Positions 51,711 through 54,707 of a stretch of DNA of 64,000 nt are shown piece by piece; position 1 is the stretch's first letter; the number at the start of each line of letters is the position of its first letter. The DNA lies in assembly GCA_945890485.1 (NCBI GenBank), contig CAMDCN010000013.1, forward strand, positions 62,001 to 126,000, given 5' to 3'. Source of the stretch: Candidatus Sulfopaludibacter sp. SbA3 (GTDB lineage: Bacteria; Acidobacteriota; Terriglobia; Bryobacterales; Bryobacteraceae). The notes beneath the pieces were generated by a model that had not been told where the DNA came from, ran no database searches, and saw nothing but the letters and a program-made list of their open reading frames with translations. The translations under genes were made by a program, and so were the position numbers.

Positions 51711-53024
51711 ATGAACCGTCGCAACTTCCTGTTCGCCCTCGCCGCGCCAAAGCCCCGGCCCAACTTCTTGTTCCTGTTCTCCGACGATCAGCGATTCGAC
51801 ACCATCCGCGCGCTCGGCAATCGGGAGATCCAGACGCCGAATCTCGACCGGCTCTGTGCTCGCGGTGTCGCCTTTACCCAAGCCTCCATCATGGGCGGCA
51901 ACCAGCCGGCCGTGTGTATGCCATCCCGGGCCATGCTGATGACCGGTCAGTCGCTGTATCATGCCACCGACGCCGTGGCCGGTAAGCGCCCGTATCATCT
52001 CTGGCCCGCGGTCTTCGCCCAAGCCGGATACCAAACCTATGGGGCAGGGAAGTGGCACAACGGCCCAAAGCTCTATCACGAAGCCTTCACCGCCGGCGGC
52101 CCCATCTTCTTTGGCGGAATGAACGACCACTACCGCACCCCGCTTCACCGCTACAATGCCTCCGCGCAGTACCCGCCCGCCGCGGCGGAACGATCGCCCA
52201 AACAATCTGCCAGCGAATTGTTTACCGATGGACTGCTCGGATTTCTGCAGCGCCGCGACAAAACGAAGCCATTCTGCGCCTATGTGGCGTTTACTGCGCC
52301 CCACGATCCCCGCCAGGCCCCGCCCGAGTGGCAGGCGAAGTATCCAGTCGACAAGATCAAGTTGCCGCAGAATTTCCTGCCGAAGCATCCGTTCGACAAC
52401 GGCGAGCTAGAGATTCGCGATGAGAAGTTGCTGCCGTTTCCGCGGACGCCGGAGGCCGTGAAGAAAGAGATCGCCGACTACTACGCGCTGATTTCGCATC
52501 TCGATAGCCAGATCGGCCGCATTCTCGATGCGGTGGATGAGAACACGATCATCGTGTTTGCCGGCGACAACGGGTTGGCTGTCGGCCAGCATGGATTGTT
52601 AGGGAAGCAGAATTTGTACGACCACTCGATTCGCGTGCCTCTGCTTGTGGCGGGTCCCGGAATTAAGAAAGGCCGGAAGAGTTCGGCGCTTGTGTATGTT
52701 CAAGACTGCTTCGCCACGCTGTGCGATCTCGCCGGGTTGCCGAAGCCTGCTACTGTCGAGGGAGAATCGTTCGCCCCGGCGCCACGCGGCGAGCAGTTTG
52801 TGGGCCGGGCCAGCACCTTTCATGTGTATCGCGATTTTCAACGCGCCGTTCGGACACGGACGCACAAGCTAATCCGCTACACGGTAAAGGGGGTCACTAC
52901 GAAGCAACTCTTTGATCTTGGCCGGGATCCGCTTGAGATGACAAACCGAATTGACGACCCGAGCCAAGCGAAACGCATCGCCGAACTGGAGGCCGAACTC
53001 AGCCGTTGGGAGAAGCTGGTTTAG
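51711..53024 (+). CDS. Type I sulfatase with twin-arginine-like N-terminus
   Basis: A 437-residue arylsulfatase-family enzyme. The N-terminus carries Asn-Arg-Arg-Asn-Phe (2-6) and a short hydrophobic stretch, like a Tat signal. The metal site is at LFSDDQRFD, and Cys69 in CMPSR (CxPSR) would be converted to formylglycine by a separate enzyme not encoded here. AGDNGLAVGQHG and KHPFDNGE are further conserved segments. Sulfatases release sulfate from sulfated polysaccharides or other esters. Convergent with the RidA-like gene by 4 bases. Confidence 0.93.
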   Translation: MNRRNFLFALAAPKPRPNFLFLFSDDQRFDTIRALGNREIQTPNLDRLCARGVAFTQASIMGGNQPAVCMPSRAMLMTGQSLYHATDAVAGKRPYHLWPAVFAQAGYQTYGAGKWHNGPKLYHEAFTAGGPIFFGGMNDHYRTPLHRYNASAQYPPAAAERSPKQSASELFTDGLLGFLQRRDKTKPFCAYVAFTAPHDPRQAPPEWQAKYPVDKIKLPQNFLPKHPFDNGELEIRDEKLLPFPRTPEAVKKEIADYYALISHLDSQIGRILDAVDENTIIVFAGDNGLAVGQHGLLGKQNLYDHSIRVPLLVAGPGIKKGRKSSALVYVQDCFATLCDLAGLPKPATVEGESFAPAPRGEQFVGRASTFHVYRDFQRAVRTRTHKLIRYTVKGVTTKQLFDLGRDPLEMTNRIDDPSQAKRIAELEAELSRWEKLV

Positions 53025-54121
53025 GGCGTGGGACGAACCGCGACGACAGAAACCTGTTCGACCATCGGCCAAGTGCCGTTGGCCTGCTCTTTACGAACGA
53101 CCGGGGCGAGGGGCTGGACCGTCGTGCGTGTCGGCGGGATCTGCGGGAAAAAGCTCCCATAAATTCCATTCATTTTGCCAAACTCGGCGAGGTCGTCGAC
53201 GTACACATTCGACTGCACGCAGTGGCTGAAGTTCAGGCCAGCTTCTTCGAGTCCGTCGAGCAGGTTGCGCATCGTCTGACGTACCTGAAGTTCGACCGTC
53301 GGGGCATAGATGCCCGAATTCGGCCCGGGAATGAAGCCGGACTTCGCGGAGCAGTAGAGGGTATCGCCGGCCCAGACGCAGGGGCTGGCGGTCTGGCTCG
53401 GTGCCATGTTGCGAGGGCGGACGACGCGGCGGTCCTTCCGATCCTTAACGGCGACGCCGGTGATCGCAATCTTCGCGCCGTTGGGGAGCTCGTTCACCAC
53501 CAGCGAGGCGCGCGCCGGGGCGTCTCCCGCGGCGAACAAGGGCGCGTAGGCCTTGTTCATTTCAGCGAGACTGAGGTCGGGCGTGACATAAACGTTAACG
53601 AAAACCAGATTCCCGAGATCGGGCACGGCCTTCTTCAGCAAGTCCATCGCGGCGGCGGGGGTAGCGGCGTAGAGTCCGGGGATGTAGGTGCGGTCGAGGG
53701 TTTTCTTCGTCGCGACAGCGTTGATTTCGACCGGAGTTTCGGTCGGCATCCGCTTCACACCCAGCACGGCGCGGACGGGCCCGGCGCCGGGGAAGTATTC
53801 CTTCCAAACTTTGTCCATGACGGGGTAGTTCGTCATATCCGAAAGGTATACCTGGCTATAGATGATGTCCGCCAGGGTAAGGCCGCCGCCTTCCACGATC
53901 GCTTTCACGTTTTCGAGGCACTGACGCGTCTGACCCTCGAAGGTGGCCGCCATTTGATTGTTGGCGTCGCGCGCTCCCTGCCCACTCACATAAAGGACGC
54001 CGTTGGCCATAACCCCGGGCGTGTAGGGGCCTACCGGCTTCGGACCAACCTTCGGATAAACAGCCGACTTTTCAGCGGCCAGCATCGTGAATGCCAGAAA
54101 GAGGGCGGAGAAGAGACGCAT
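53021..54121 (-). CDS. Secreted tandem RidA-like (YjgF) protein
   Basis: ATG 54121 (366 residues) starts 7 bases after the frr stop; the longer frame starting inside frr is rejected. A signal peptide (about 1-16) precedes three RidA-like units: about 27-137 (GPYTPGVMANGVLYVSGQG), a shorter one about 148-226, and about 237-363. Each has the family Arg: Arg117 (PVRAV), Arg204 (PARASL) and Arg332 (PTRTTV). RidA normally is a homotrimer of single domains that hydrolyses reactive enamines or imines. The tandem chain may be a single-chain pseudotrimer, exported to the periplasm. Confidence 0.85.
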   Translation of the reverse strand: MRLFSALFLAFTMLAAEKSAVYPKVGPKPVGPYTPGVMANGVLYVSGQGARDANNQMAATFEGQTRQCLENVKAIVEGGGLTLADIIYSQVYLSDMTNYPVMDKVWKEYFPGAGPVRAVLGVKRMPTETPVEINAVATKKTLDRTYIPGLYAATPAAAMDLLKKAVPDLGNLVFVNVYVTPDLSLAEMNKAYAPLFAAGDAPARASLVVNELPNGAKIAITGVAVKDRKDRRVVRPRNMAPSQTASPCVWAGDTLYCSAKSGFIPGPNSGIYAPTVELQVRQTMRNLLDGLEEAGLNFSHCVQSNVYVDDLAEFGKMNGIYGSFFPQIPPTRTTVQPLAPVVRKEQANGTWPMVEQVSVVAVRPTP

Positions 54122-54128
54122 CGGGAGC

Positions 54129-54707
54129 CTACTTGACGTCGAGCAGTTCTTTTTCTTTGGCTTTGGCAACTTGGTCGAGTTTGGCGATCAGGCTGTCCGT
54201 AAGCTTTTGGTTGTCTTCGAGGGCGCGGCGCTCGTCGTCTTCACTGATCGCCTTGTCCTTGAGCAGCTTTTTCACGGCGTCATTCGCATCACGGCGAATG
54301 TTGCGGATGGCTACGCGATGATCTTCGGCGATGCCGAGCAGCTTCTTGACGAGTTCCTTGCGGCGTTCCTGGTTCAGGGGCGGAATCGGCAGGCGAATCA
54401 GGACGCCATCGTTCGAGGGATTCAAGCCGAGATCGGAGTTGCGGATCGCGGTTTCGATCGCCTTGATCTGAGACCGATCGAACGGCGTAACGGTGATCAT
54501 GGCCGGCTCGGGCACATGGAGTGTCGCCACATGCGAGATGGGCGAGAGCATGCCATACGCTTCCACCTGAATCGAATCGAGCAGGTTGATGGACGCCCGG
54601 CCGGTGCGGATCGACGCCGCATCGTGCTGCATATCGGCGACTACCTTTTCCATGCGCTGCTTAGCGTGCGCTTCTACTTCCTTAACGGTCGTGAAAGGTT
54701 GCGACAT
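54129..54707 (-). CDS. frr: Ribosome recycling factor
   Basis: A 192-residue protein with the conserved RTGRASINLLDSI, NLNPSNDG-like (GLNPSNDGVLIRLPIPPL) and RRDANDAVKKLLKDKAI segments. Frr splits post-termination ribosomes with EF-G. It follows pyrH by 13 bases, as in most bacteria. Confidence 0.97.
   Translation of the reverse strand: MSQPFTTVKEVEAHAKQRMEKVVADMQHDAASIRTGRASINLLDSIQVEAYGMLSPISHVATLHVPEPAMITVTPFDRSQIKAIETAIRNSDLGLNPSNDGVLIRLPIPPLNQERRKELVKKLLGIAEDHRVAIRNIRRDANDAVKKLLKDKAISEDDERRALEDNQKLTDSLIAKLDQVAKAKEKELLDVK

Follow-up and report, generated by a model that had tools for sequence, protein, structure and literature searches.

An exported-type 3x-RidA family of Acidobacteriota with unlike units and vitamin-B6 enzyme neighbors

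Results

A chain of three RidA units

The role best known for RidA proteins is to protect the cytoplasm from enamines that pyridoxal phosphate (PLP) enzymes make. In a 64,000-nucleotide stretch of the genome of Candidatus Sulfopaludibacter sp. SbA3 (contig CAMDCN010000013.1; hereafter the window), we analyzed a gene whose product holds three RidA units in tandem behind an export-type start. Niehaus et al. named such chains 3x-RidA in 2015, presumed them to be covalently linked trimer units, and gave EF_0115 of Enterococcus faecalis as the example (PMC4433059; this and the other articles are cited from portions of their text). What is new is an exported-type acidobacterial 3x-RidA family with unlike units, a middle unit whose decay is confined to its first half, and a link to exported-type PLP enzymes. 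The gene and its parts are as follows.

53021..54121, minus strand: 3x-RidA gene, 366 amino acids plus stop; homologues with the same layout were found
54074..54121, minus strand: signal peptide, residues 1-16, from a hydropathy rule, cleavage site judged by eye
53705..54073, minus strand: RidA unit 1, residues 17-139, complete fold
53426..53704, minus strand: RidA unit 2, residues 140-232, profile positions 54-120, first two strands gone
53024..53425, minus strand: RidA unit 3, residues 233-366, longer last loop

Translation of positions 53021-54121 on the minus strand gave a protein of 366 amino acids that begins MRLFSALFLAFTMLAAEKS. A Pfam scan returned Ribonuc_L-PSP (PF01042) as its sole family, at 180.1 bits against a cut-off of 27.3, in three stretches. 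When the whole genome was searched with PF01042, these stretches scored 100.2, 32.8, and 53.1 bits, every one above the cut-off, which bears out the three RidA-like units proposed in the initial annotation. The middle stretch spans only positions 54-120 of the 121 in the profile. The RidA subfamily model TIGR00004 scored 178.6 bits summed over three stretches, above its curated cut-off of 106.25. Aligning the units with each other against 300 shuffles gave Z scores of 8.8 (units 1 and 2), 14.5 (units 1 and 3), and 3.5 (units 2 and 3); the last pair scored 43, below the top shuffle at 47, and its likeness is weak. Judged by these alignments, the three units are related beyond chance, units 2 and 3 weakly so. 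The protein has the three RidA domains in tandem within one chain that define 3x-RidA, unit 2 being shortened yet RidA-like.

Predicted fold of the chain

RidA acts through active sites that sit between subunits, and the initial annotation had proposed that one polypeptide may fold as a pseudotrimer. AlphaFold, run on the single chain with the alignment, predicted one compact chain, with a predicted local distance difference test score (pLDDT) of 93.6 and a predicted template modeling score (pTM) of 0.91. The best whole-chain structural match was chorismatase 4bps (Z score, 24.1; root mean square deviation, 2.8 Å; 260 aligned residues; model residues 40-362). Together, the chorismatases 4bps, 5ag3, and 5a3k matched the whole chain with Z scores of 23.3-24.1 over 260-263 residues at 2.8-3.1 Å and 11-12% identity. 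The fold of chorismatase (FkbO) resembles the YjgF trimer. The proteins have the whole-chain fold in common, as the match to 4bps shows, and the reaction of chorismatase is a different one. Unit 1 matched many RidA chains with Z scores of about 21 at 1.2-1.5 Å.

A middle unit that did not fold as RidA would count against the pseudotrimer proposal, and this is not what modeling gave. Modeled alone together with residue 139, the middle unit reached a pLDDT of 91.0 and was RidA-like, matching Rid chains with Z scores of 10.4-12.1 and deviations of 1.9-2.9 Å over 84-92 residues. Most of these matches begin at about RidA residue 23. According to the model, the middle unit has lost its first two strands, and the remainder is RidA. 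The profile match and the RidA-like fold of the lone unit ruled out that it is a misprediction or a non-RidA insert.

The compact prediction is consistent with a pseudotrimer in one polypeptide; the idea itself, a covalent trimer, was already in print under the name 3x-RidA (PMC4433059). RidA units ordinarily trimerize, and the chain might instead stay open, its units joining those of other chains into RidA trimers and building larger oligomers. Both the single-chain pTM of 0.91 and the whole-chain match to single chorismatase chains, which come from the predicted model, point away from such oligomers, and we consider them very unlikely.

Relatives of the protein

Relatives were collected in three rounds. 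A first scan, over 396 phylum genomes, gave clear full-length relatives at L016-L018; L021 matched over units 2 and 3, and its frame holds three units. A scan of genome contigs with the last 172 residues gave 88 loci, the best 80 of which were kept as the 80-locus set; they were found via the exact unit-3 patterns DT[YL]YCSAK or E[AL]QVRQ[TS]M. Acidobacterial group titles are carried by 78 of the 80. At L060 (titled Acidimicrobiia) and L105 (titled Betaproteobacteria) the gene nests in acidobacterial tree clades, and these may be mislabeled metagenome-assembled genomes. The resulting alignment of 76 rows holds 71 of the 80 loci plus P0001, L016, L017, L018, and L021; the other nine were omitted (alignment A3) because the match was too short or the frame was cut at a contig end. 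Alignment A4 holds 48 of the 75 other members.

The third round was a class sample of 151 genomes, searched with the whole alignment at a threshold of E = 1e-45. Sixteen genomes, about a tenth, matched at this value or better, the window's own genome being counted; the chain is therefore a family. The search for homologues, which the initial annotation had suggested for chains of the same length, recovered chains of the same layout. Ten of the other 15 class-sample members carry neither search pattern and five carry one. At least two of these five resemble, by their N-termini, loci already in the set (L138 resembles L056, and L148 resembles L046); the 91-row set of the 76 aligned rows plus the class sample includes some near duplicates. 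A plasmid search for full-length 3x-RidA matched 35 records, none with 80% query coverage at a single site.

Shortening of the middle unit

Across the 76 aligned members, the length of units 1 and 3 is far steadier than that of unit 2. The middle unit has 94 amino acids in the window protein and its seven nearest aligned relatives and 97 in L018, as against 110-116 in four members and 127-134 in the remaining 63. The initial annotation was right to call it short, and the shortening is, in the alignment, local to the window's clade, the chain itself belonging to a wider family. At L018 (1498-2550), the middle unit lacks a different portion, and Arg204 and Ser258 are both lost.

The same unit had been thought possibly degenerate, which holds for one half of it. 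Half-unit entropy over 52 representatives was lowest in the first half of unit 3 (0.89) and highest in the first half of unit 2 (2.17). With the eight main-pattern columns removed, the first halves scored 0.71 (unit 3), 1.57 (unit 1), and 2.08 (unit 2), in unchanged order. In the second half of unit 2, the family arginine is still present in 75 of the 76 aligned members and in 89 of the 91 rows with the class sample. Decay within the middle unit is, on this evidence from the alignments, confined to its first half and strongest in the window's clade.

Family arginines and proposed sites

The residues that bear on the active sites lie at the following positions.

53771..53773, minus strand: Arg117, unit 1, family arginine, in a proposed site (pairing putative) with the half of unit 2 that has decayed
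53510..53512, minus strand: Arg204, unit 2, aligned to the family arginine
53348..53350, minus strand: Ser258, unit 3, putative partner of Arg204
53126..53128, minus strand: Arg332, unit 3, in a proposed site (pairing putative) that takes Tyr33, Ser46, and Glu132 from unit 1
53726..53728, minus strand: Glu132, unit 1, equivalent to Glu120 of RidA; Glu in 53/76 members, Gln in 23/76
53678..53680, minus strand: Pro148, unit 2, at the Ser of the SG motif in most relatives; Ser in 63/76, Pro in 8/76

Arg117, Arg204, and Arg332, the three arginines singled out in the initial annotation, all align to the RidA subfamily arginine (Arg105 of TdcF). They are kept in 69, 75, and 61 of the 76 aligned members and in 84, 89, and 72 of the 91 rows, respectively; on the 76-row tree they changed three times, once, and five times. 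All three are present in 53 of the 76 and in 11 of the 15 class-sample members, and Arg117 is kept in all 15. Arg332 is lost most often, and Arg204, as far as these counts go, is at least not degenerate. Ser258 is kept in 75 of the 76, a number that the search pattern helps to raise, and in all 10 pattern-free relatives. The positions equivalent to Glu120 hold Glu132 in unit 1, Ala219 in unit 2, and Gln356 in unit 3. Aligning the units and comparing their pocket residues in this way supports the earlier idea of differing sites. Among the 76 members, Arg204 and Ser258 are jointly lost only in L018. The distant class relative L150 (E = 4e-49) has Arg204 replaced by His and Arg332 by Leu in the alignment.

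Each monomer of salmon RidA-1 has its N-terminal residues paired with the C-terminal segment of the adjoining monomer (PMC7311433). Because of these contacts and the inter-subunit position of RidA sites, the simplest pairing would have the arginine of each unit face the first half of the next. Site 2/3 would then combine Arg204 with Ser258, Lys260, and Gln356 and would be the most widely kept. Site 3/1, the most classical set in the window protein, would combine Arg332 and Thr334 with Tyr33, Ser46, and Glu132, and site 1/2, with Arg117, Pro148, and Ala219, would be spoiled in the window's clade. Covariation on the tree of 76 rows gave hints for this pairing and nothing significant.

The protein could also be an exported binding or scaffold protein that has kept the RidA fold and is no longer an enzyme, its sites holding small carboxylates or aiding a partner. 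The unit-1 or unit-3 arginine is lost in 22 of the 76 members, unit 2 shows decay in its first half, and the window's genome encodes an export-type triple-Rid paralogue without a family arginine at positions recognizable by eye, all of which would suit such a role. The full set of three arginines in 53 of the 76 members and 11 of the 15 in the class sample, together with the PLP enzymes among many neighbors, weighs against this reading, and we regard the scaffold as unlikely. The paralogue, at L012 (1285-2406, contig C1), has 374 amino acids, scores 65.1 bits with PF01042, and shares scarcely any BLASTP likeness with the window protein (E = 0.002). At L054 (6795-7898), a relative of it is encoded some 1.3 kb downstream from the 3x-RidA gene.

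Export-type N-termini and PLP-enzyme neighbors

A signal peptide had been noted at the N-terminus in the initial annotation, and an export-type start is indeed what we found. A basic residue followed by a hydrophobic 11-mer is present in 36 of the 38 members whose start was assigned, the window protein among them, and the products of frr, pyrH, tsf, and rpsB fail the same rule. The call comes from this simple hydropathy rule, not SignalP, and starts were themselves chosen by rule; 43 of the 80 loci are without an assigned start. The export-type start stands, and from it we infer the periplasmic placement that had been proposed along with it.

A same-strand gene resembling the PLP enzymes DgaE and SelA was found at 41 of the 80 loci, at 39 of them within about 650 bp; it lies upstream in 39 cases and downstream in two. 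Such a gene also adjoins L016, L017, and L021, and none was found at the 26 other loci of the 396-genome scan (25 partial matches and L018), mostly viewed over about 1.5 kb per side. The 15 class-sample loci, with 1.2-1.5 kb per side, gave a DgaE-like gene at six, an aminotransferase at one more, and frr at one. Two loci, L142 and L143, have two different same-strand DgaE-like genes, one on each side of the 3x-RidA gene. At L069 (3003-4289) and L079 (2116-3363), what separates the DgaE-like and 3x-RidA genes is a frame that, from a look at the sequence, is amidohydrolase-like and perhaps a deacylase step.

The PLP lysine (index 213 in our numbering, Lys-217 in that of the published work) is kept in all 44 DgaE-like neighbors. 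His was found at the DGL 162/163 columns in none of the 44 and in none of the six copies in the window's own genome. DGL without His163 (H163A) releases an enamine and not an imine (PMC9529869). A twin-arginine start is present in 42 of the 44, the other two (L079 and L093) being cut at contig ends; the pattern itself caught 41, and that of L113, missed since the motif lies at the edge of the stretch, was seen on inspection. For the two representatives compared with NCBIfam, DgaE ammonia-lyases were the nearest model.

On loci without a DgaE-like gene, an open-reading-frame heuristic gave mixed and partly unreliable output, and the recurrent aminotransferase was taken further. It lies just upstream at seven further loci (L056, L057, L059, L062, L072, L075, and L076). 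Six of the seven have twin-arginine starts; of the L059 copy, only the end is on the contig. The three aminotransferases checked belong to Aminotran_1_2 and scored 289-293 bits with the PtaA model, below its cut-off of 500. Exported-type PLP neighbors of either kind are thus found at 48 of the 80 loci.

The window's own clade

Two context genes flank the 3x-RidA gene in the window.

54129..54707, minus strand: frr, directly upstream, last of an rpsB-tsf-pyrH-frr run (names by recognition)
51711..53024, plus strand: sulfatase-like gene, outside the proposed system, converging on the 3x-RidA gene (name by recognition)

The end of frr at 54129 and the ATG at 54121 leave the 7-base gap given in the initial annotation, which had placed the gene at the end of the ribosomal operon. 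It does follow frr, as a local trait. Across the 80 loci, frr is directly upstream at eight (L045-L050, L052, and L073) and about 3 kb away at one more. Within the short-unit clade, the gene follows frr at L045-L050 and L052; L051 is cut off, and the genus relative L148, from the class sample, has the same order. The placement says little of function, and a link to translation was dropped as a general clue because frr is upstream at so few loci. A housekeeping role linked to translation or to 2-aminoacrylate stress in the cytoplasm, with an N-terminus that is no working export signal, would agree with the position after frr in the window, at the eight loci, and at L148. Set against it are the export-type N-termini in 36 of 38 members, the small number of frr loci next to the 48 with exported-type PLP neighbors, and the other PF01042 genes of the genome (14 matches, three of them within this gene). 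We hold this explanation to be quite improbable.

The stop codons of the sulfatase-like gene and the 3x-RidA gene share 4 bp. Of the eight loci in the short-unit clade, seven have a sulfatase-like gene; the contig of the other has little DNA there. The copy at 51711-53024 has a twin-arginine-like start (MNRRNFLFALAAP). Elsewhere, the window's genome holds six DgaE-like genes, five of them with a twin-arginine start, and a single gene related to the aminotransferase (38% identity).

Discussion

Known systems compared

With 3x-RidA as described (PMC4433059), the family has in common the three tandem RidA domains and would share the presumed covalent trimer. It differs in its export-type start, its unlike units, and its exported-type PLP neighbors, and the window's clade also lacks the first half of the middle unit; the comparison is with the published description. 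With the RidA subfamily (TIGR00004; TdcF/YjgF of Escherichia coli), the window protein shares the fold and the family arginines, and its unit 1 has the Tyr, Ser, and Glu equivalents; unlike that subfamily, it is one chain instead of three, with unlike sites and an export-type start.

In marine chitin oxidation, the RidA protein OngD, whose role is given as unknown, is essential beside a PLP D-glucosaminate deaminase (PMC9537276). This cluster likewise joins a PLP D-glucosaminate deaminase, OngC, to an essential RidA protein; OngC, however, is predicted to be cytoplasmic, and OngD is a single RidA protein of 127 amino acids (PMC9537276). The DgaE-like neighbors share with DgaE the PLP lysine (44/44) and the best NCBIfam match (two representatives). 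Those two representatives fall below the curated cut-off, and the neighbors lack His at the 162/163 columns and have twin-arginine starts. PvdN and PtaA are periplasmic PLP enzymes exported by twin-arginine translocation (Tat); six of the aminotransferase neighbors have a twin-arginine start, and the three checked score under the PtaA cut-off; no RidA partner is named in the portion of that article cited (PMC6206403). Among the papers listed by literature searches with little coverage of subscription journals, none was recognized as dealing with RidA export, a solved 3x-RidA structure, or a pairing of DgaE with RidA, and the term 3x-RidA was not found in the collection searched beyond PMC4433059.

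A proposed periplasmic role beside PLP enzymes

Reading export, site pairing, catalysis, and the partners' chemistry from the computed units, fold prediction, residue counts, and neighborhoods, we infer an exported 3x-RidA that is one chain and a covalent asymmetric RidA trimer, hydrolyzing reactive enamines or imines in the periplasm in the service of exported PLP enzymes. We place this proposal at the midpoint between doubt and confidence. The protein may clear reactive by-products of neighboring exported vitamin-B6 enzymes outside the cytoplasm; in the window's genome, several exported DgaE-like enzymes would be its partners in trans.

Several observations weigh against this proposal. None of the eight loci of the window's clade has either kind of PLP gene nearby (L051 is without upstream DNA). 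In the class sample, 7 of the 15 loci have none of the sought genes within about 1.2-1.5 kb, and only 3 of the 10 pattern-free relatives have a DgaE-like neighbor. Most upstream DgaE-like cases fall in one large clade and so represent few independent events. The two DgaE-like representatives scored 155.1 and 188.8 bits with TIGR01437, below its cut-off of 385.3, and 4 of the 44 neighbors have a His a few columns off 162/163. As for the sites, changes of Tyr17 or Glu120 barely affected Salmonella RidA (PMC4433059). Arg332 and Glu132 co-change in 3.1 of 4 independent pairs, which is not significant, the direction being weakly supported, and Arg332 and Tyr33 do so in 0.5 of 4; L150 is without Arg204 yet keeps Ser258. 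One of the unit-3 search patterns is contained in 74 of the 76 aligned rows, and the conservation of unit 3 and its partners is inflated because loci were found by these patterns. The 10 pattern-free relatives keep Arg117 in 10, Arg204 in 9, and Arg332 in 8 cases. The lead of Arg204 over Arg117 therefore rests on the biased set, and its absence from the pattern-free relatives lowered our confidence both in the periplasmic role and in the module described below.

A wider and more tentative proposal, which we lean somewhat against, is a periplasmic enamine/imine module of Acidobacteriota, composed of Tat-exported PLP lyases or aminotransferases and an exported RidA pseudotrimer in which the site between units 2 and 3 would be under selection and the others would drift. 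If true, the module would be an extracytoplasmic route for degrading amino-sugar acids or D-amino acids, and it would show how a homotrimeric enzyme can become a one-site enzyme after gene fusion. If an exported RidA works beside exported PLP enzymes, enamine chemistry, and perhaps a catabolic route, would also be periplasmic. The fused chain, in which some halves are widely kept and others decay visibly, with staged middle-unit lengths (134, 110-116, and 94 residues), would offer a natural series on the loss of symmetry after fusion.

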